Source of the DNA: a virus | Strand: one strand, 5' to 3' | IMG/VR virus record: IMGVR_UViG_3300046660_000411 | Coordinates: 1 to 39,271 of that record | Length of the DNA stretch: 39,271 bases | Shown here: in pieces, positions 15,571 through 33,632 of the stretch | How positions within the stretch are numbered: the first letter of the stretch is position 1 | Layout of the letters: each line of letters begins with the position of its first letter | Notes under the pieces: model-generated | What the model was told of the DNA's origin: nothing | The model's input: only the letters and a program-made list of their open reading frames with translations | The model's database searches: none | Position numbers and translations under genes: made by a program

Positions 15571-17613
15571 GTGTCGACCGAACCGATCCCCTTTGATGCA
15601 CGCCGCAGGGCCAAGCACCTCTATTGGGCGGGCTATACGCTCGAACAGGTCGCCGACGCGCTCGAGCTCAACGCCAATACGGTGAAAAGCTGGAAGCAAC
15701 GCGAGGATTGGGACAACGCGTCGCCGCTCGAGCGCATGGAGGGCGTGACCGAGGCGCGCTATTGCCAGCTCGTCCTGAAGGACGACAAGTCGGGGCGCGA
15801 CTTCAAGGAGATCGATCTGCTCGGCCGTCAGGCCGCGCAATTCGCCAGGGTGCGCCGCTACGAGCAGCCGGGCGGGCACGAAGGCGACCTCAATCCGAAG
15901 GTTGCCAACCGCAACAAGGGCGAGCGTAAGAAAGCGCGCAAGAACCACCTGACTGAAGAGCAGGCCGAGCAGCTGCTCGCGGCGTTCGACACCGAAATGT
16001 TCGGTTATCAGCGTGGGTGGAGCGGGTCGCGGATCGATCTGCTGTCGTCCACGTCGAACGTCACCCGCTTCATCCTGAAATCGCGCCAGATCGGTGCGAC
16101 CTTCTATTTCGCGCGTGAGGCGATCGCCCGCCTGCTCGAAACCGGCAACAATCAGATCTTCATATCGGCGAGCCGCGCCCAGGCGAACGTGTTCCGCCAG
16201 TATATCGTCGACTTCGTCTTCAACGTGACCGGCGTGAAGCTGGAAGGCGACCCGATCACGCTCGATATCGACGGCGTGCAGGGGCCGCAGGGCGAAGCGC
16301 CGAAGCTCTATTTCCTCGGCACGAACTATCGCACCGCGCAAAGCTATCACGGCGACGTCTATATCGACGAGTGCTTCTGGATCCACGGCTTCGAACGCAT
16401 TGACGAGGTTGCCAGCGCGATGGCGACCCATTCTCGCTATCGCATCACGTACTTTTCGACGCCGTCGACGATCGCGCACCAGGCGCACCGCGTGTGGTCG
16501 GGAGAGAAGTACAACGAGGGGCGTGACAAAAGCGAAAAGGGCGACTTCAAATATTCCGACGAACAGCTGCGCACCGGCGTGCTCGGCCGGGACGGCATCT
16601 GGCGCCAGGTGGTCACGCTGCTCGACGCGAAGGCGGGCGGTTGCGAGCTGATCGACGTCGATCGCCAGCGCCAGCGCTATTCGGTCGAGGCGTTCGACAA
16701 TCTCTACATGTGCAAATTCGTGGACGACAGTCAGTCCATGTTCCCGTTCGCGCTCATGCGACGCGGGATGGTCGACGCCTGGGAAAAGTGGCGCAAGGAC
16801 TTCGATCCATATGCGCTGCGTCCCTATGGCGAAGGCGAAGTGTGGATCGGGTACGATCCGGCCGAGAGCGCGGCCGGCGACGATGCCGCCCTGGTGATCC
16901 TCGCCGCGCCCCGCACGCCGACCGAGAACTTCCGGCTGCTCGAAAAGATGCGTCTGCGCGGGCTCGACTTCGCCGGCCAGGCCGCCAAGATCATCGAGCA
17001 GCTCGGCCGATACAATGTCGGCTTCATTGGGATCGACACGACGGGTGTCGGCGCGGCCGTCTGGCAGCTGGTCGTGCAGAAATTCCCGATGGCCAAGCGG
17101 TTCGACTACAACGTCGCGCTCAAGACCAGCATGGTGCTGAAGGCAAAGAACGTCTTCACGTCGGGTCGCTTCGAATACGACAACGGCGCCCAGGACGTGC
17201 TGCAGAGCTTCATGGCGATCCGCGCCGAGCTCACCGGCAGCCAACGCCAGATCACCTATGTGGCGAGCCGTGCCGGCGACACCGGGCACGCCGATCTCGC
17301 CTGGGCGATCATGCACGCCCTCTACAACGAACCTTTGGACCCTGCGGGCCTCGGCTCGCGCAAATCTCGAGTGAGGATCTCCGGCAATGCACAGTCAGGA
17401 CACGATCAGCCCGGCAGCGGCCCGCGCGCATGGCACCGCAGCGGCCGAGACCACGGCTGGCGCATCGCAGCCGGCGCGCGCCATGGCCTTCAGGTTCGGC
17501 GATCCCACGCCGGTGCTCGATCGCGGCGAGTTCCTGTCCTACCTGCAGTGCCTCACCAACGGCCGTTGGTACGAGCCGCCCATTCCCATGCACGGGCTCG
17601 CGCGCGCCTATGA
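15571..17613 (+). CDS. P: Terminase large subunit P (with unusual 3' extension)
   Basis: This is the packaging ATPase and nuclease of the P2 gpP family. It starts at GTG 15571 with an N-terminal helix-turn-helix (YTLEQVADALELNANTVKSW). A deviant Walker A (LKSRQIGAT), Walker B (VYIDECFW) and the nuclease motifs IGYDPAES, GIDTTGVG and DTGHADLAWA follow in order. P2 P is 590 aa. Here the frame reaches the usual end near residue 606 (SRKSRVRIS) but then continues without a stop to residue 680, overlapping Q by 227 bp in another frame. The extension looks like translated Q-shadow sequence, so a lost stop codon or a sequence error is possible. No Shine-Dalgarno sequence precedes the GTG. Confidence 0.9.
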   Translation: MSTEPIPFDARRRAKHLYWAGYTLEQVADALELNANTVKSWKQREDWDNASPLERMEGVTEARYCQLVLKDDKSGRDFKEIDLLGRQAAQFARVRRYEQPGGHEGDLNPKVANRNKGERKKARKNHLTEEQAEQLLAAFDTEMFGYQRGWSGSRIDLLSSTSNVTRFILKSRQIGATFYFAREAIARLLETGNNQIFISASRAQANVFRQYIVDFVFNVTGVKLEGDPITLDIDGVQGPQGEAPKLYFLGTNYRTAQSYHGDVYIDECFWIHGFERIDEVASAMATHSRYRITYFSTPSTIAHQAHRVWSGEKYNEGRDKSEKGDFKYSDEQLRTGVLGRDGIWRQVVTLLDAKAGGCELIDVDRQRQRYSVEAFDNLYMCKFVDDSQSMFPFALMRRGMVDAWEKWRKDFDPYALRPYGEGEVWIGYDPAESAAGDDAALVILAAPRTPTENFRLLEKMRLRGLDFAGQAAKIIEQLGRYNVGFIGIDTTGVGAAVWQLVVQKFPMAKRFDYNVALKTSMVLKAKNVFTSGRFEYDNGAQDVLQSFMAIRAELTGSQRQITYVASRAGDTGHADLAWAIMHALYNEPLDPAGLGSRKSRVRISGNAQSGHDQPGSGPRAWHRSGRDHGWRIAAGARHGLQVRRSHAGARSRRVPVLPAVPHQRPLVRAAHSHARARARL

Positions 17614-18466
17614 CATGTCGCCGCATCATCGCAGCGCGATTCTCTACAAGCGCAATCAGCTGATCCGCCTTTTCGAGCCGACGCCCTGGCTCACGCGCAG
17701 CACGCTCGGCCAAGTTGCTCTCAATCTTCTCCAGATGGGGAACGGATACCTGCAGCGCGTCGACAACGTCTTTGGCCGGCCGCTCCAGCTACGCAACTCG
17801 CCGGCGATCCATACCCGCGTCGGCGTCGAGCCCGGCCACTATTTTTGGATACCGGACGGCGAGCCGGAATCCGAATTCGATCCAGGGTCGGTTTTCCATC
17901 TGCTCGAGCCGGAGTTGAGGCAGGAAATCTATGGGCTGCCCGAATGGACAAGTGCGCTGCAGGCCGGACTGCTCAATTTCGACGCGACGATCTTTCGACG
18001 CAAATATTACCTCAACGGCAGCCATGCCGGCTATATCCTCTATGTCAGCGAAGCTGTGCTCGAGGACGCCGACGCCGAAGCGATCGAAACGGCGATGGAG
18101 CAATCCAAGGGACCGGGCAATTTCCGCAACCTCTTCCTCCATCTGCCGGGCGGCAAAGAGAAGGGGGTGCAAGTCATCCCGATCGGCGAAGCCGCGGCGA
18201 AGGACGAATTTCTCGGGATCAAGAACACGACGCGCGATGACGTGCTGGCCGCGCATCGGGTGCCGCCCGTGCTGATCGGTGTCGTGCCGCAGGTCGCGGG
18301 CGGGTTCGGCAAGCCTAGCGAAGCGGCAGAGGCGTTCCATTACGCCGAGATCGAGCCGCTTCAGCTGCGCACGCTTGAAATCAACGACTGGCTTGGCGTG
18401 GAAGCCGTCAAATACCGACCCTATGAGGCGGCGCCGGCCGCTGCCGCGGCGAACCAAGCCGCTTAG
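17387..18466 (+). CDS. Q: Portal protein Q
   Basis: This is a 359-aa portal protein of the P2 gpQ family (344 aa in P2), a dodecameric ring at the head vertex. The conserved stretches are RYDMSP-like ARAYDMSPHHRSAI, LLQMGNGYLQR, VFHLLEPELRQEIYGLPEW and KNTTRDDVLAAHRVPP. The N-terminal 30 residues are alanine/threonine-rich and variable. It follows P in the late rightward operon. Confidence 0.93.
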   Translation: MHSQDTISPAAARAHGTAAAETTAGASQPARAMAFRFGDPTPVLDRGEFLSYLQCLTNGRWYEPPIPMHGLARAYDMSPHHRSAILYKRNQLIRLFEPTPWLTRSTLGQVALNLLQMGNGYLQRVDNVFGRPLQLRNSPAIHTRVGVEPGHYFWIPDGEPESEFDPGSVFHLLEPELRQEIYGLPEWTSALQAGLLNFDATIFRRKYYLNGSHAGYILYVSEAVLEDADAEAIETAMEQSKGPGNFRNLFLHLPGGKEKGVQVIPIGEAAAKDEFLGIKNTTRDDVLAAHRVPPVLIGVVPQVAGGFGKPSEAAEAFHYAEIEPLQLRTLEINDWLGVEAVKYRPYEAAPAAAAANQAA

Positions 18467-18607: not shown

Positions 18608-19408
18608 ATGACAAGTCTTACCAGCGTCCGTCCGGTGCGGCCGGCGAGCGGTTACATCGGCGGGAAGCGCAACCTGGCGACGCGCATCATCCCCATCATC
18701 GAAAGCACTGATCACCAAGCCTATGCCGAGCCGTTTGTCGGCATGGGCGGGATTTTCCTACGCCGGCGCCGTCGACCACCGGCCGAGGTCATCAATGATG
18801 TGTCGGGCGACGTGACCACGTTCTTTCGCGTGATGCGCGAGCATTACGGGTTCTTCATGGACTCGATCCGCTGGCTAATTGCCAACCGGGCCGAGTTCGA
18901 TCGGCAGATGCGCCTGCCGCCCGACGATCTCACGGATCTGCAGCGCGCGGCGCGGTTTCTGTATCTGCAGCGCTTGGCGTTCGGCGGAAAAGTCGAAGGC
19001 CGCCATTTCGGCGTATCGCCGCTGCAGCCGGCACGCTTCAACGTGTTGCGGCTCGAGCGCGACCTTGCCGATCTTCACGAGCGCCTGGCCGGCGTCGTGA
19101 TCGAGCGGCTCGGCTTTGCCGATTTTATCGGGCGGTATGATCGGCCGGGAACGCTATTCTATCTCGACCCACCCTATTGGGGATGCGAGCGCGACTATGG
19201 CCAGGATGTGTTCTGCCGCGACGACTTCGCAGCCCTCGCCGAGCAGCTGGCGGGCATCAAGGGCAAATTCCTGCTGTCGATCAACGACACGCCCGGCGCG
19301 CGCGAGGTGTTCGGTCGCTTCCGCATGCGCGAGCTCGAGACCACATATCAGATTGGAGGCATGGCCAATGCCAAGAAGGTCGATGAGTTGCTGATCTCTA
19401 ACTGCTAG
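18608..19408 (+). CDS. dam: Dam-type DNA adenine methyltransferase (D12 class)
   Basis: This 266-aa N6-adenine methyltransferase has GYIGGKRNLA near the N-terminus and the AdoMet-binding motif EPFVGMGG (41-48). The catalytic DPPYWG (187-192) and a C-terminal INDTPGAREVF segment follow, in the order of Dam/D12 enzymes. Its likely target is an adenine in a short site such as GATC, which cannot be read from the sequence. It follows Q on the same strand after 141 bp and may be expressed late, marking progeny DNA before packaging as protection against restriction. No cognate nuclease is adjacent on the same strand. Confidence 0.88.
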   Translation: MTSLTSVRPVRPASGYIGGKRNLATRIIPIIESTDHQAYAEPFVGMGGIFLRRRRRPPAEVINDVSGDVTTFFRVMREHYGFFMDSIRWLIANRAEFDRQMRLPPDDLTDLQRAARFLYLQRLAFGGKVEGRHFGVSPLQPARFNVLRLERDLADLHERLAGVVIERLGFADFIGRYDRPGTLFYLDPPYWGCERDYGQDVFCRDDFAALAEQLAGIKGKFLLSINDTPGAREVFGRFRMRELETTYQIGGMANAKKVDELLISNC

Positions 19409-19538: not shown

Positions 19539-21152
19539 CTAGTTCTTGAAGCCTGAATTGCAGAATGGGTGCGCAGGGTTAAGGTTGCGGCTTTGATTAT
19601 CGCCACCATCCTCGCGCCGTTTGTCGTGGTCAAACGTCATTGAATTGCTGTGAACCGCGGCGTCACAGATCCGGCATCGCACGGGATTAGCCATCGCCTC
19701 GCGGATAAATGCGCTAGAGCGTGAAGCGCTGGATGCGCCGCGCTTGCTTGGCGGCAAATCTGCGGTTGGCGGCGGGATGTCGACTACCTTAAGGAAGACG
19801 TAATCGTCCTTTGCGACGAGAGTTTTCAGGATGCCATCTTCCGCGACGCCATCGTGCAGGGCCTGAAAAATCTCCCAAAGTAGATTGGCCACCCTGTCCA
19901 GACTGCGTGCGCCACTTCCGAGGCGAGTTATCGCCAGCGAGATGAAAATCTTGTTCTGAAAAAGGTAGTCCTCGAACCGCCGCCGCACAGCGGTGAAGTG
20001 CTTTTTCCTACCCTCCCGATCCAGTCGCTGGGAAAACTCCAATGATGCCAGGAACGCGCCGGGCAGAAAGTTTCCGGAGCGAGCGTAAAAATAGATCAGT
20101 GGGTGAAGGCCAAGCGACCCGCTGTCATTGGTGCTGATCAAGTCGATCCGCTTGCGAACTTTTTCCAGCATCGCAACTGTCTGCGAGCCATCCGGATCGG
20201 GCGCCAAAGCGTCGGGTATCAGCTTGGCAGTTGCGCTGCTCGCCATCGGCAGGCCGTTGCATAGGCTGACCAGATCATAAACGAACGGGAGGGCGTTGTA
20301 GCCCTGCCCCGCTATTGGCACGTCTGCCGATGTAGTCGGGTTACGATGCGGCGGTTTGTATAGGTCATCATATAGGCAGTCGCCTAAGGTCTCGATGCGC
20401 TCCCTTCGGGTATGATCGAACGCACCCCAGTATTTGTGGCCCTGCGCACCGCGCGCAATGCATCGTGCCGCAATGGCGTTCGGAGCCGTGCGACTCTTAA
20501 GGATAGTGCGCTCAACTGGATCAATTGGCTGTGCCGCTTGATTTATCTTGAAGAAAGAGTCCTCAGCCGCCTTCGGCGTGGTGGCCGTCACCCACTGGAT
20601 GAGTATCGACTCGCGGCCAATAGCGGCTAATCGTCGCGCCTTCTCGGGATCAGAAACCTCCTGCCCGACTAAGCCCGAAAATTCAGCGTAAGTACCGATT
20701 TTGCTCCTGATCATGTCGCGCGTGCGTTTTGCAATTCGTCGCTGTTCGTCGGTAATCCCAGCGCCGAATAGCCGGTTTGAGTCAGCTTGATCGCCGTAAT
20801 CGTCGCGCACCCAAGCAATCAGCGCACTGAGACGGTGCGCGCCGTCAATTACAAATATCTCGTCTCCCCGTTCCCACAGGATGACGGCGGGAATTAGATC
20901 CCGGTCCAAGAAGGATCGAATCAGATCATAGACCTTGGTCGGCGTCCAATTGGCAGTCTCTCGCTGAAAATCAGGCTTGCGAAGGCTGTTTTGGAAGAAG
21001 CCGTCTTTTTTCAGATCGGTCAGACTGATCGTCTGGCGTGGACTCCCGCCGCCCTTCACGTCATCCTTAGCTGCGAAATCGCCGCGCGGGATTAGAGCGT
21101 CAAGGTTCACAAGTCCGGCCATTTGCTCTTCCCCGTCCCGAGCCGCGGTCAT
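19539..21152 (-). CDS. DUF262-HNH nuclease, candidate anti-phage protein
   Basis: This is a 537-aa protein. The N-terminal half is DUF262-like: residues 60-66 (PDFQRET) and the ParB-like signature IDGAHRLSAL (102-111). DUF262 domains in GmrS-type proteins use this site for nucleotide-dependent control. The last 45 residues form an HNH nuclease: C493-x2-C496, D508-H509, R522-N523, C531-N532. There is no DUF1524 domain as in GmrD, so the nuclease is fused in a single chain. A strong ribosome site (GAGGAGAG) supports ATG 21152. The gene sits in the slot after Q, the position of tin/old in P2, and has lower GC than its neighbours. A defence role against modified or invading DNA is inferred from domains and location. 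Confidence 0.8.
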   Translation of the reverse strand: MTAARDGEEQMAGLVNLDALIPRGDFAAKDDVKGGGSPRQTISLTDLKKDGFFQNSLRKPDFQRETANWTPTKVYDLIRSFLDRDLIPAVILWERGDEIFVIDGAHRLSALIAWVRDDYGDQADSNRLFGAGITDEQRRIAKRTRDMIRSKIGTYAEFSGLVGQEVSDPEKARRLAAIGRESILIQWVTATTPKAAEDSFFKINQAAQPIDPVERTILKSRTAPNAIAARCIARGAQGHKYWGAFDHTRRERIETLGDCLYDDLYKPPHRNPTTSADVPIAGQGYNALPFVYDLVSLCNGLPMASSATAKLIPDALAPDPDGSQTVAMLEKVRKRIDLISTNDSGSLGLHPLIYFYARSGNFLPGAFLASLEFSQRLDREGRKKHFTAVRRRFEDYLFQNKIFISLAITRLGSGARSLDRVANLLWEIFQALHDGVAEDGILKTLVAKDDYVFLKVVDIPPPTADLPPSKRGASSASRSSAFIREAMANPVRCRICDAAVHSNSMTFDHDKRREDGGDNQSRNLNPAHPFCNSGFKN

Positions 21153-21227: not shown

Positions 21228-21365
21228 ATGGTTGAAGCAGACGATCCGAAGTCGCTGACCGATCAGGAGCTGCTGTCCGCCTATGAGCAGACCAGCGGCG
21301 AGCCTGGTGATCCGATCGCCGAAGCGCTGCTAGCCGAGATCAAGCGGCGCGGGCTCGATACCTGA
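21228..21365 (+). CDS. Small acidic protein upstream of YedK (45 aa)
   Basis: This is a short gene with a good ribosome site (GAGGAG, 9 nt before ATG 21228). Its stop overlaps the YedK start as TGATG. The product, beginning MVEADDPKSLTDQELLSAYE and ending IKRRGLDT, is helical and acidic. I recognise no family. Coupling to YedK suggests that it is a real operon member. It shares the 75-bp intergenic region 21153-21227, containing a TTGATAAT -10-like sequence, with the divergent DUF262-HNH gene. Confidence 0.68.
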   Translation: MVEADDPKSLTDQELLSAYEQTSGEPGDPIAEALLAEIKRRGLDT

Positions 21366-22009
21366 TGTGTAACCTCTACAACCTTAAAGTCGCGCGCTGG
21401 GAATTGCAGGCCTACTACCAGGCCAATGATGACTTCCGGCGCGAAATCGAATTGGATGAGCTCGCCAAAGATTATGTGAGCAAGGCGACGCCGGGCCTGG
21501 TTGTACGGCAGGTGGATGGCCAGCGCCTGCTATCCGAACCGCTCCATTGGGGATGGCCGAATCCACGGCCAGGACAAGACGAGGTTCGGAACGTCCGCAA
21601 TTACTCGAGCCCATTCTGGCGCTCGGCCCTCGTCAACCCTGAACGGCGATGCCTTGTGCCCTTCACGCAGTTTCAGGAATGGACGGTCGAGCCTGATCCT
21701 GAGACGGGCAAGAAACGTCCGCATTGGTTCAGTCTGCTCAACCGGCCGATCGGCACGTTCGCTGGGATTTGGCGCCCGAGCGAGAAGGGCGACATTTTCA
21801 CCTTTCTGACATGTGGGTACAGCGAAAGTCCTCGCGATAGCGACGATGAGCGCGCCGCCGCCGCTTCGCATATCGTGGGGAAAATCCATCCTAAGGCGAT
21901 GCCGGTGATCCTCCACGAGGAAGACTTCGACAAATGGCTGACCGCGCCTGTCGATGACGCCCTAACGTTGGCATGTGCCCATCCGAGCCAGCTGATCGTA
22001 GTCGATTGA
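21365..22009 (+). CDS. yedK: SOS-response-associated peptidase (SRAP/YedK)
   Basis: This 214-aa protein belongs to the YedK/HMCES family, which crosslinks to abasic sites in single-stranded DNA through its N-terminal cysteine. Catalytic landmarks are present: Cys2 (MCNLYNL), Asn near 76-79 (VRNVRNYSSPF), Glu105 (FTQFQEW) and His175 (IHPKAMPVIL). Its length is normal. It overlaps the 45-aa gene before it and the next gene as TGATG at both ends, forming a three-gene operon. In a phage it may protect replicating DNA, or act together with the SOS-regulated genes that converge on it. Confidence 0.92.
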   Translation: MCNLYNLKVARWELQAYYQANDDFRREIELDELAKDYVSKATPGLVVRQVDGQRLLSEPLHWGWPNPRPGQDEVRNVRNYSSPFWRSALVNPERRCLVPFTQFQEWTVEPDPETGKKRPHWFSLLNRPIGTFAGIWRPSEKGDIFTFLTCGYSESPRDSDDERAAAASHIVGKIHPKAMPVILHEEDFDKWLTAPVDDALTLACAHPSQLIVVD

Positions 22010-22629
22010 TGGCAACAGAGAACATCTGGGTCATCATCGCGTCATCATCGGTAGGAGCGGCTGCTCTCACTCAGCTTTTTGCCGAGGTCCGCGAGCGTTG
22101 GAAGGAACGTGACGAAGCGCCTTTTTCGGCACTCTACCTCGCGCTGGCTTTGGAGGATTATGCTCGCCAATGCGAAAAGTACCTCGACGATCTAGAGACG
22201 TTCAGGGCGTCGGACGAACACGCCGGTAGGTTCCACATGTCAACGCCGGCGCTTGCCGAATATCCGGACGCCATCGACTGGAAGCGCGTTGGCGTCCGAC
22301 TATTTGAAAAGGCATTTGAGTTTCGGGTGCTTCTGTCGGAGGCCGATCGCGAAATCGCTCAAGCCTACTATTTCGACCCTCCCGATGGCGGCGATCAACT
22401 GCTGATGGAGACGCTCATCAACAAGGGTTTGGCCGCGCTCGACTTAGGGGCTGAAATTCGCAAGAAGCACAAGCTGTCGCGGCTAAAGTCAGAGACGCCG
22501 TTCTCGACGTATGGCTATCTCGCCATGCTGAAGGAACGCGCCAAGGAGAGGCGACAACTCCTCATTAAGTCGAAGATTGGCGGGGGCCAGCCCGACGGTT
22601 CGCCCGGAACCGGGCAGGATGAACTGTAG
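22009..22629 (+). CDS. Membrane-anchored hypothetical protein after YedK
   Basis: This 206-aa protein starts at ATG 22009, overlapping the YedK stop. One short N-terminal hydrophobic segment (IWVIIASSSVGAAALTQLF, residues 6-24) is followed by a charged helix (AEVRERWKERDE) and a mostly helical cytoplasmic domain. The C-terminal 30 residues are lysine-, arginine- and glycine-rich. I know no function. Its coupling to YedK suggests that the two are needed together. Confidence 0.7.
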   Translation: MATENIWVIIASSSVGAAALTQLFAEVRERWKERDEAPFSALYLALALEDYARQCEKYLDDLETFRASDEHAGRFHMSTPALAEYPDAIDWKRVGVRLFEKAFEFRVLLSEADREIAQAYYFDPPDGGDQLLMETLINKGLAALDLGAEIRKKHKLSRLKSETPFSTYGYLAMLKERAKERRQLLIKSKIGGGQPDGSPGTGQDEL

Positions 22630-26579: not shown

Positions 26580-26924
26580 CTACGGGCGCTCCGAGCGGGC
26601 CGCCGAGGCGGCGTTAAAGGTCGTTGTGGGTTGATGGTGACCAGCGGGCGCAAGCCGCAGATCAGCGTGCGGGACGGACGCGTTGTCGAGGTGTAGAGTG
26701 CTGTAAGCGGCTGCATTACAACTCGGGCCTGCGCCCGATCGCCGTCCGGTCGCGCGATCCTCTTCGCGTAACAGGGACTCTAGGCGCAGGCTCTCGGCAT
26801 CGGTCAGCGCACGCGTCCGGCTAAGCGCGATTAAGTCAGCGAGGGTCGCGCCTGCGCGCATCGTCTCAGCGACGGTGCGATGGGGGAAGGGGAAGGACCC
26901 GCAGGCTGGCAGAGGACGCATCAT
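26580..26924 (-). CDS. Hypothetical protein after the second methyltransferase
   Basis: This 114-aa protein has a central helical part, SRTRALTDAESLRLESLLRE, and a low-complexity C-terminus. ATG 26924 overlaps the methyltransferase stop as ATGA. An Ogr-like palindrome (26702-26720) lies within the C-terminal half. No family recognised. The C-terminal half may not be conserved. Confidence 0.5.
   Translation of the reverse strand: MMRPLPACGSFPFPHRTVAETMRAGATLADLIALSRTRALTDAESLRLESLLREEDRATGRRSGAGPSCNAAAYSTLHLDNASVPHADLRLAPAGHHQPTTTFNAASAARSERP
26702..26720. promoter_or_regulatory. Fourth Ogr-like palindrome, inside an early gene
   Basis: TGTAA-N9-TTACA, preceded by GC like the late sites but followed by AC instead of GC. 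It lies inside the 26580-26924 gene, about 200 bp upstream of the AlpA-like gene on the minus strand. It could be a real activator site or chance. Confidence 0.4.
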
Positions 26925-27619
26925 GCAGCCTGCGCCTGGTCGATCGTCGCGACGGCGCCGCGGATCCGCTCCACGGCGATGTCGAAATAGCGCGGGTTCT
27001 TCTCGATGCCGGTGAAGCGCTTGCCGGCGCGGATGGCGGCAACGCCGGTCGAGCCGGTGCCCATGAACGGGTCGCACACCGTCTCGCCAGCCGCATTGCC
27101 GATGATCTTGGCCATGAGGGCGTCAGGCTTGGTGGTCGGGTGCCCGAAGCGCGCGGCGCCGCGCGGCCGATCGATCCTGCTGACGCGCTTCAGCTCGCCG
27201 AGCGTCCCGCACGGATGATAGCCGCGGTTCCACGCGTGGACATAGAACTCGACGTCGGGCCGATAGTGCTTGTTCGCGACCGGTTGGGGATTCGTCTTCT
27301 GCCAGACGCAAAGCGCGTGCCGGTGAAACTGGCCCTGCACCAGGGACAGCAGCTCGGCGAGTTGGTCATTGTGAGCGAACACGACCGCCGCGCCGCACAG
27401 GAGCGGGTTGACGATCGACATGTCGAAACCGCGATGGAGACCATCTTCGAGGAGGCGGTCCATCGTTGGGCGATCCCTGCGGTATCGACCGCCACCCTGA
27501 GCACGAAATAGGTAGGGAGGATCGGTCGCGTCCACGTCGTGGAACCCGAGGGTGGGGCGCAACTCGTAGGCGTCGCCCAGGTAGAGGGTCGCCGGGCCGA
27601 TCCGGACAAACGTCGTCAT
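26921..27619 (-). CDS. Beta-class DNA methyltransferase (N6A/N4C)
   Basis: This is a 232-aa site-specific DNA methyltransferase. Catalytic DPPY (33-36) comes first, HPTTKP is at 160-165, and the AdoMet motif DPFMGTGSTGVAA (183-195) comes last. That order is the beta class, as in CcrM-like enzymes without the extra C-terminal domain. The target sequence is unknown. ATG 27619 overlaps the stop of the preceding 42-aa gene as ATGA. It is expressed with the early operon, unlike the dam gene in the late region. Confidence 0.88.
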   Translation of the reverse strand: MTTFVRIGPATLYLGDAYELRPTLGFHDVDATDPPYLFRAQGGGRYRRDRPTMDRLLEDGLHRGFDMSIVNPLLCGAAVVFAHNDQLAELLSLVQGQFHRHALCVWQKTNPQPVANKHYRPDVEFYVHAWNRGYHPCGTLGELKRVSRIDRPRGAARFGHPTTKPDALMAKIIGNAAGETVCDPFMGTGSTGVAAIRAGKRFTGIEKNPRYFDIAVERIRGAVATIDQAQAA

Positions 27620-27744
27620 CGCGCGTCTCTTCGGCCGAAGGGGACGGTGTCGACGCGCCGATGAAACGGAGCCGGGTGCCGGATTTTGGAGCGCGGCCAT
27701 CCCGAGGGCAAAATTAGGGGGAACAGTCTGCGGATTTCTGCCAT
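27616..27744 (-). CDS. Small basic protein upstream of the methyltransferase (42 aa)
   Basis: The product begins MAEIRRLFPLILPSGWPRS and is rich in arginine, proline and histidine. A clear GGAGG lies 8 nt before ATG 27744. The stop overlaps the methyltransferase start. A 16-codon frame (27744-27794) precedes it with TGATG at both ends, so a chain of overlapping short frames links the 85-aa gene to the methyltransferase. It may be a coupling device more than a functional protein. Confidence 0.5.
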   Translation of the reverse strand: MAEIRRLFPLILPSGWPRSKIRHPAPFHRRVDTVPFGRRDAR

Positions 27745-27793: not shown

Positions 27794-28051
27794 TCAACGG
27801 CGCGCCTCTGACCGGCTGGCGCAGGGCGGCGACACCCACAGGGCGTTGGCCAACAGCGCGCTACGCTGCACGGCAGGAAGCCAGCCCAAACCCTCAAGCG
27901 TCCTGGCGAGCGTCGCGTGTCCCGGGACGCCCTCCCCGAACGCGGCGCGCAGGCCATCGCGGACCGCTCCGAGGGTGACTTGCGGTCTGCCCGTGACGAC
28001 AACCGCGACGCCGGCGCGCAGGGCGGCAAGATATTCGGCACGCGTCTTCAT
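27794..28051 (-). CDS. Hypothetical protein after the GapR-FtsK fusion
   Basis: This 85-aa protein starts [40 protein letters not shown] resembles a small helical DNA-binding or regulatory fold. ATG 28051 overlaps the fusion's stop as ATGA. No function known. Confidence 0.6.
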
Positions 28052-28713
28052 GCCGGCGCCTGGTCGTGCCGGGGCGCCATGACAGCTCGCTTGCCGGTCC
28101 CGTCGGGCTTGGAGACGATCCGCTCGCGCTCCATGAGTTCGATCAGGCGCGCGGCCGAGTTGTAGCCCAGTCGCAGCTGGCGCTGCAGCCACGACGTCGA
28201 CGCCTTGCCCTCCGAGCGGACCAGCTTGACGGCTCGATCGTAGAGATCTTCGTCCGTCGTGTCCTCGCGGGCTTCGGCGAGCTGGCGCAAGCCCGACATA
28301 GGCAGAACGAGGTTGCCATCGATGATCGTCCCGCCGGCCTCCTGGATCTGCGCGGCGAGCTGCGAGACATCGAGTCCGGTATTGGTGGCGTCGATCGCTT
28401 GCTCGAGCGGGGTCGGCTCCATCATCGAGCCGAGAGGGGTGCTGGCGAAATCCATGCCGAGGGCGTGGAGATAGGTGTCGAGGATCGCCTCCTCTTCCTG
28501 ATACTCCTCCCGCTTCTTCTTCCGGATCGCCATGATCCGCTTGGCGGCCTTCACATCGTAGCCGCGGCTTTTGGCCTCCGCCCAGACGTCCTTGAGGTCG
28601 TCGGCGATGCCCTTTTTTTCTTCCTCCAGACGCTCCGCGCGCTCGATCAACAACCTGAGCTCATCGGCCGCTACGCGCCCTCCGCCGATGCCTTCGCCAC
28701 GTTCTTCAACCAC
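28048..28713 (-). CDS. GapR (DUF2312) - FtsK gamma domain fusion protein
   Basis: This 221-aa protein joins two DNA-binding modules. Residues 13-87 match GapR/DUF2312, the alphaproteobacterial nucleoid protein that binds overtwisted DNA ahead of replication and helps gyrase. Key segments are [19 protein letters not shown] and [16 protein letters not shown]. Residues 154-212 match the FtsK gamma winged helix, which in FtsK reads KOPS sequences and activates Xer[36 protein letters not shown] linker of about 65 residues separates them. GTG 28713 has GGGAG upstream. It sits in the early operon between Ogr and the methyltransferase, and suggests a role in phage DNA topology, replication or resolution. 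The fusion is what I see; the role is inference. Confidence 0.85.
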
Positions 28714-32684: not shown

Positions 32685-32768
32685 AGCGCGCCTAAGTCAT
32701 CGAACCGCTAGGAACGGCGATACAGAATTTCGTCGTGGCATTGAGCCTTGTCCTCTAAAGTCGTGTCA

Positions 32769-33632
32769 ATGTTTCCATTAGTGCACCAGATACTGAAGCC
32801 TCAGGGACCGCAAACTAAGCTCCCGTCAATCGGCGAGTGCATCTACTGCCGACGAAAGCCGCCCGATGTAACGTTGACCACCGAACATATCATCGCAGAT
32901 GGCCTTGGCGGCGATCTACTATTGCCAGATGCAAGCTGCGGCGATTGCGCCCGCAAAACGGGCTGGTTCGAGCAAGATATCTTGCGCCAGCTCCTCAAGC
33001 AGCCGCGCGGCGCTCTGGGCATTCGATCACGTAAGAGGAAGCCCAAACAGACCTCAATGAAGGTGAATTTGGCAGGAGATGGGGAGCCACCGGCCTTCAC
33101 CGAAATACCATTTGTGGAAGGGATGCCAGCATTCTTGACGTCGCTGGTTGGTGACAAATCCCCCGGAATCATGCGTGGCGCGCCACGCGACGAAGAATGG
33201 CTCGGGCGCGTGCAAATTGCCACTCAAGCCGATTTCAACGAACGCGCGATGAAAACGATCGGCGCGGGCAGATTTCGATACGGCTTTAAACTTCACGCCG
33301 GCGTGTACGGGCAACTGATCGCCAAGACCTGTCACGCATTTGCTGTCGCCCACCTCGGCGTAGACGGCTTTGAGCCGTTTTTGACCGACTACATTATGGC
33401 GACCCAGCCGCGGTTCGACAGCTATCACCTGGCATCAACAACCTTCCCACCGCAAACGGAATTTCTCCACGAAATTTCGCTGCAGTCGATATTCGTGCCC
33501 GCAGTCTCGATTGTTGGGGTCGGCTCGCGTGAGGTTTACGCTGTCCGGTGGCGCATGTTTGGCCAGCTTTCTGGACCGGTTTTTACAGCAATCGTCGGAA
33601 AGCCCGTCAATCGAGCGCAGCCCGCGCTGTAG
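32769..33632 (+). CDS. HNH endonuclease-like protein
   Basis: This 287-aa protein has an N-terminal HNH-type zinc domain: C24-x2-C27 (CIYCRRK), E39-H40-I (TTEHIIADGLGGD), and C57-x2-C60 (CGDCARK). The remaining 220 residues have no recognised domain. Start alternatives are TTG 32748 and ATG 32769, and neither has a clear ribosome site. The gene follows the HEPN-like gene after 84 bp and converges on D. It could be a moron nuclease or belong to the same conversion module. Confidence 0.75.
   Translation: MFPLVHQILKPQGPQTKLPSIGECIYCRRKPPDVTLTTEHIIADGLGGDLLLPDASCGDCARKTGWFEQDILRQLLKQPRGALGIRSRKRKPKQTSMKVNLAGDGEPPAFTEIPFVEGMPAFLTSLVGDKSPGIMRGAPRDEEWLGRVQIATQADFNERAMKTIGAGRFRYGFKLHAGVYGQLIAKTCHAFAVAHLGVDGFEPFLTDYIMATQPRFDSYHLASTTFPPQTEFLHEISLQSIFVPAVSIVGVGSREVYAVRWRMFGQLSGPVFTAIVGKPVNRAQPAL

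Follow-up and report, generated by a model that had tools for sequence, protein, structure and literature searches.

A one-gene DUF262-HNH protein, probably a GmrSD-like restriction nuclease, encoded as cargo in a P2-like phage

The stretch of P2-like phage DNA analysed here (39,271 nucleotides, hereafter the window) encodes a single-chain DUF262-HNH protein of 537 aa on the minus strand at 19539..21152, which was identified as a member of family phrog_29172 from its ORF, Pfam and PHROGs matches, residue conservation, and an AlphaFold2 model. The protein is probably a GmrSD-like (type IV-like) restriction nuclease encoded by one gene, which a P2-like prophage carries as cargo and which protects the lysogen from competing phages. 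The computed basis for the type IV-like reading comprises the domain content, a three-motif NTP pocket, the HNH residues, the predicted fold, the one-gene organisation, and recurrence on mobile elements.

The ORF at 19539-21152(-), which begins with ATG and whose coordinates include the stop codon, was confirmed as real, as was its DUF262/HNH content. A Pfam search of the N-terminal end placed GmrSD_N (PF03235, DUF262) on residues 54-214 (20511..20993, minus strand; E 1.7e-10, 41.8 bits, above the gathering cut-off of 33.2), and the same domain was found in 84 of 94 relatives. At the C-terminal end, PF01844 HNH was aligned to residues 493-533 of the 537-aa protein at a score just under its cut-off (E 0.0015, 19.0 vs 21.4 bits), but it was matched by 89 of the 94 relatives; the corresponding motif spans residues 493-534 (19551..19676, minus strand). 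The preliminary description had read a DUF262-like region and a compact HNH motif on one chain, and both domains are indeed contained in this single 537-aa ORF. Since each domain recurs in most relatives and the motif residues are invariant among them, the DUF262-HNH pairing is not a chance association. DUF1524 (PF07510) was detected at E 0.01 in none of the 94 family members. The match to phrog_29172 covers the full length of the protein (E 1.6e-115), and the function label of that family in PHROGs is "unknown". PADLOC v2 returned no confident match of the nuclease to any known defence system model, the nearest being NsnA (2.8e-7) and PD-T4-2_A (0.002), both weak and partial. LexA-like boxes (GTTC/GAAC type, CTGT-N8-ACAG) were sought upstream, and none was located close to the nuclease gene.

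Three DUF262 motifs have been defined in TgvAB as QR, DGQQR, and FxxxN (PMC11411939). In the window protein, their counterparts are all encoded within 20511..20993 (minus strand): QR as KPDFQRET (residues 59-66), the middle motif as DGAHR (residues 103-107), and FxxxN at residues 200-204. Across the 94 aligned sequences, QR and FxxxN are invariant or almost so, and the middle motif is conserved as DG[A/G/S]HR instead of DGQQR. Invariant positions within these motifs and the surrounding DUF262 segment include K59, P60, F62, Q63, R64, T66, and W69, followed by D103, G104, H106, R107, I203, and N204; invariance also extends outside the DUF262 and HNH motifs, to D18, A19, and R23 near the N terminus and to S346, L347, P351, R390, and E394 in the middle of the protein. 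The HNH residues, encoded within 19551..19676 (minus strand), form the pattern C493xxC496, D508 H509, N523, and H528xxC531-N532, of which C493, C496, H509, H528, and C531 are invariant (together with G517) and D508, N523, and N532 are near-invariant. As judged from these residues, the C-terminal domain is a Cys/His zinc-type (Cys4-type) HNH domain that includes the predicted catalytic histidine H509. D103 and H509, the two residues singled out for replacement in the preliminary description, thus both belong to the invariant set.

An AlphaFold2 model built from 89 sequences reached a mean pLDDT of 91.6 and a pTM of 0.89. When this model was compared with the PDB by Foldseek, no match with E < 0.001 was obtained, and a profile search against PDB sequences did not reach BrxU, SspE, or GmrSD. 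In BFVD, the best-scoring named matches were mostly GmrSD_N or DUF262 proteins, with low TM-scores. A second structural aligner put BrxU at the top (residues 39-493; Z 7.0 and rmsd 13.1 over 319 residues), ahead of SspE (Z 6.2), ParB and Noc (about 6), DndI (5.6), and sulfiredoxin (about 4), and the C-terminus was matched to the HNH structure 4h9d. The leading Z values are modest (6-7), and values below 8 often arise by chance, so the fold evidence was weighed jointly with the Pfam and motif results. Taken together, they point to a predicted architecture of a ParB/Srx-type N-terminal domain, a helical middle, and an HNH end, and the prominence of BrxU, SspE, and DndI among the structural matches agrees with a GmrSD-like fold.

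The same fold and motif data bear on what the nuclease would respond to. It might be triggered by some other sign of infection, such as free DNA ends, replication intermediates, or changes in the nucleotide pool, and act as an abortive-infection effector. DUF262 does occur in systems without known modification sensing, namely PD-T4-2 and Menshen (PMC10952713), the DGxHR pocket is unlike the DGQQR of GmrSD, and the models that PADLOC placed nearest, although weak, were NsnA and PD-T4-2_A. The best full-length structural match, however, is BrxU, a modification-dependent enzyme, and PMC12373910 assigns single-gene ParB_n+HNH proteins to type IV; an infection-sensing effector is therefore considered unlikely, and the type IV-like reading is preferred.

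The distribution of the family was addressed by several searches. Scans of viral and genome contig collections with the single protein retrieved no relatives, probably owing to over-specific peptide seeds. By tblastn, relatives were found in Burkholderia phage KL3, filamentous phage Pf8, and several plasmids (36-41% identity over almost the full length), and an alignment of these relatives, used as the query, succeeded in the contig scans where the single protein had not. With this query, family members were identified in 18 viral contigs and in a species-representative genome collection, where at least 274 stretches from bacteria and archaea encode one. The best 80 of these 274 were kept for analysis and span Pseudomonadota, Bacteroidota, Cyanobacteriota, Actinomycetota, Bacillota, Chloroflexota, Planctomycetota, archaea, and others. 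Family proteins vary little, most having 511-560 aa and all being collinear over their whole length, and the closest among the matches listed is a Sphingopyxis soli protein (67%). A more distant branch with about 25% identity, represented by locus L008 (4908-6563), has its own C-terminal HNH and is common on Acinetobacter plasmids.

Occurrence within species and families is patchy, which fits mobile cargo: a member was found in 53 of 5426 complete E. coli genomes (ATCC 8739 among the strains) and in 4 of 250 genomes from the bacterial family of the Sphingopyxis genome (L009). In E. coli, 13 genomes carry a near-identical allele and 40 a more distant one; members in this species include WP_000146940 and, in the laboratory strain ATCC 8739, WP_021293132. 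All three of the 13 near-identical loci that were read lie in a P2-like prophage, in the D-ogr interval beside ihfA/pheT, whereas the distant allele is chromosomal and lies outside the P2-prophage allele; the two loci read among those 40 both have an integrase next to the gene, with rcnR and a TPP riboswitch nearby. Carriers of the family thus include P2-like phages, the filamentous Pf phage Pf8, plasmids, and chromosomes. In the family tree, no fewer than 13 changes are needed to account for the phage-borne label, and the copies in the window and in KL3 fall into separate, strongly supported groups, which together indicate repeated uptake by phages. In some members (L006 5989-7572, L020, and L057), the gene is interrupted by a stop codon or a break in the frame, suggesting that it is dispensable cargo in those hosts.

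Phages commonly carry HNH endonucleases, and this one could accordingly have no role in defence but be a selfish enzyme for homing or for maintaining its element, a possibility to which the 40 E. coli genomes with chromosomal relatives outside the P2-prophage allele, and the integrase adjoining both loci read, would lend some weight. Yet the gene interrupts neither an intron nor a conserved gene, the family occupies several unrelated cargo slots, and it retains an invariant, predicted NTP-binding DUF262 domain of a kind that homing enzymes do not have, all of which makes a selfish endonuclease very improbable.

In the window, the genes are ordered P, Q, methylase, nuclease: terminase P (from 15571, plus strand), portal protein Q (17387..18466, plus strand; Pfam, PHROGs), a Dam-type (D12) DNA methyltransferase (18608..19408, plus strand; Pfam, PHROGs), and the nuclease gene on the opposite strand, convergent with Q. 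In terminase P (15571-17613), homology ends at residue ~593, but the frame stays open for about 260 further bases and enters that of the portal gene, which reflects either an unusual overlap or an indel of one base. Next to cos, the gpQ-gpA region of P2 is an established hotspot for antiviral genes, P2 itself having old and tin there (PMC9122126), and a reverse transcriptase gene occupies the same P2 position in Burkholderia phage KS5 (PMC3091744). The proposal that the nuclease gene lies in this slot after Q holds for the Q-proximal side, with one gene between, and a position beside Q recurs in phage KL3 and in viral contig L102, where the nuclease gene is likewise convergent with Q; gpA (PF05840), which bounds the classical gpQ-gpA hotspot on its other side, was not found within the window. 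D-ogr, occupied in the close E. coli relatives, is a second P2 slot for the family.

Acquisition as cargo had been argued from low GC content and opposite orientation. The first of these stands, because the nuclease gene has a GC content of 0.566 against 0.636 for the window, and no sampled stretch of equal length was lower; orientation alone is no sign, as all three Q-slot genes (window, KL3, and L102) point towards Q. Low GC content is shared by a divergent neighbour encoding a SRAP (HMCES/YedK-type) protein (21365..22009, plus strand; Pfam; GC 0.586) and by a PADLOC candidate defence protein resembling PDC-S67 (21973..22629, plus strand; 1.2e-10; GC 0.572), which delimits a cargo block at about 19.4-23 kb. 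Elsewhere in the window, a second low-GC HNH protein (32748-33632, plus strand; PF14279 HNH_5, 1.1e-6) is encoded next to tail gene D, in the region of the second P2 slot, and a GapR DNA-binding domain (PF10073, 2.8e-28) is fused to an FtsK gamma domain (PF09397, 2.7e-23) at 28051-28713 (minus strand).

Neighbour clustering in 106 loci revealed no conserved partner gene: no cluster occurred in more than seven loci, and the commonest, found in seven, was transposase-like in appearance. The SRAP gene was considered as a partner, but it lies no more than two genes away in four loci (window 21365-22009, L005, L015, and L039), too few for a link to be asserted, and with mixed orientation (p 0.09). 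Enrichment in defence islands was not convincing either, as PADLOC gave few strong matches among 128 near and 117 far chromosomal neighbours alike, counted per family and not per protein. Individual copies do adjoin known systems, namely EcoRII R-M and Vsr genes in KL3 and CBASS-type genes on a Burkholderia glumae plasmid. The window itself carries two DNA methylases, the Dam-type enzyme at 18608-19408 and an N6/N4-type enzyme at 26921-27700. Across loci, DNA methylase genes were found at most two genes away in seven loci versus two far (Fisher p 0.007), three of these seven having supplied query sequences. This association, together with the presence of SspE and DndI among the best structural matches, would fit a nuclease that reads a host mark, either phosphorothioate, as in SspE/DndI, or the mark of a nearby methylase, and that accordingly determines whether DNA is attacked or spared, as half of a restriction-modification-like pair. 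Against such a role, methylases of the searched types are absent within two genes of the nuclease in about 93% of the 106 loci, the types involved differ (Dam and C5), and no partner is conserved, leaving a host-mark reader quite improbable.

For the type IV-like nuclease, analogy with BrxU, SspE, GmrSD, and TgvAB (PMC10952713, PMC11411939) suggests how nucleotide use, modification sensing, DNA cleavage, and phage protection may be connected. The DUF262 (ParB/Srx-fold) domain would bind and hydrolyse a nucleotide and would recognise some property of DNA entering the cell, a base modification being the likeliest. The resulting change may be relayed through the helical middle, so that the HNH domain at the C terminus would cut or nick that DNA. 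E. coli is normally Dam+ Dcm+, with GATC and CCWGG methylated. Because relatives reside in E. coli and an EcoRII-type cytosine methylase lies beside the KL3 copy, plain Dam (GATC) and Dcm (CCWGG) methylation are probably not the trigger. A bolder and rather unlikely proposal is that proteins of the DGxHR branch form an immune nuclease type of their own, very widespread and made of one protein, which has moved among phages, plasmids, and bacterial and archaeal chromosomes and has a trigger unlike those of GmrSD, BrxU, and SspE (neither glucosylated hydroxymethylcytosine nor phosphorothioate). The trigger of this family bears on whether DUF262 proteins of the DGxHR type sense the same DNA marks as those of the DGQQR type, in a family that is large, uniform, single-gene, and present on at least three kinds of mobile element.

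The combination of DUF262 with HNH instead of DUF1524, regarded as unusual in the preliminary description, is an established design: in PMC12373910, single-gene ParB_n + HNH proteins are one standard GmrSD type IV architecture, and most E. coli members are named by NCBI as GmrSD restriction endonuclease domain-containing proteins. That paper reports that 8 of its 15 GmrSD groups were active against T-even phages. In PMC11341870, DUF262 and HNH are also shown, though not tested, among the genes associated with KKP modules of prophages. The general design is thus already known; the phrog_29172 branch itself, though widespread, appears to lack a dedicated study, none having been found in literature searches that included the accession numbers of three members and phrog_29172.

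Compared with known systems, the cargo position beside portal Q is shared with P2 old/tin and other gpA-gpQ hotspot genes (PMC9122126), to whose proteins the nuclease is unrelated. With TgvAB the family shares the DUF262 motif set (QR, DGxxR, and FxxxN) and a His-Me nuclease, but TgvAB needs two DUF262 proteins, whereas no partner gene accompanies the family. Likewise, the predicted DUF262 domain fold resembles that of SspE and DndI (Z 6.2 and 5.6), which, unlike the family with its lack of any conserved partner, act with phosphorothioation genes. BrxU (PDB 7p9k and 7p9m), the top structural match, covers the N-terminal domain and helical middle (Z 7.0, 319 residues); its nuclease part is DUF1524, in contrast to the PF01844 HNH of the family, and the profile search gave no sequence match to it. 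In contrast to GmrSD sensu stricto (DUF262 + DUF1524), the family has no detectable C-terminal DUF1524 (PF07510), and it has DGxHR where almost all GmrSD proteins have DGQQR. Two features of the GmrSD superfamily are nevertheless present, with an N-terminal DUF262/GmrSD_N domain and a His-Me finger nuclease (HNH) with invariant H509 on the same chain. At the level of architecture, rather than of assignment to one of its 20 clusters, the protein therefore resembles the single-gene GmrSD enzymes of PMC12373910, in which N-terminal DUF262/ParB_n and C-terminal HNH are likewise joined in one chain.
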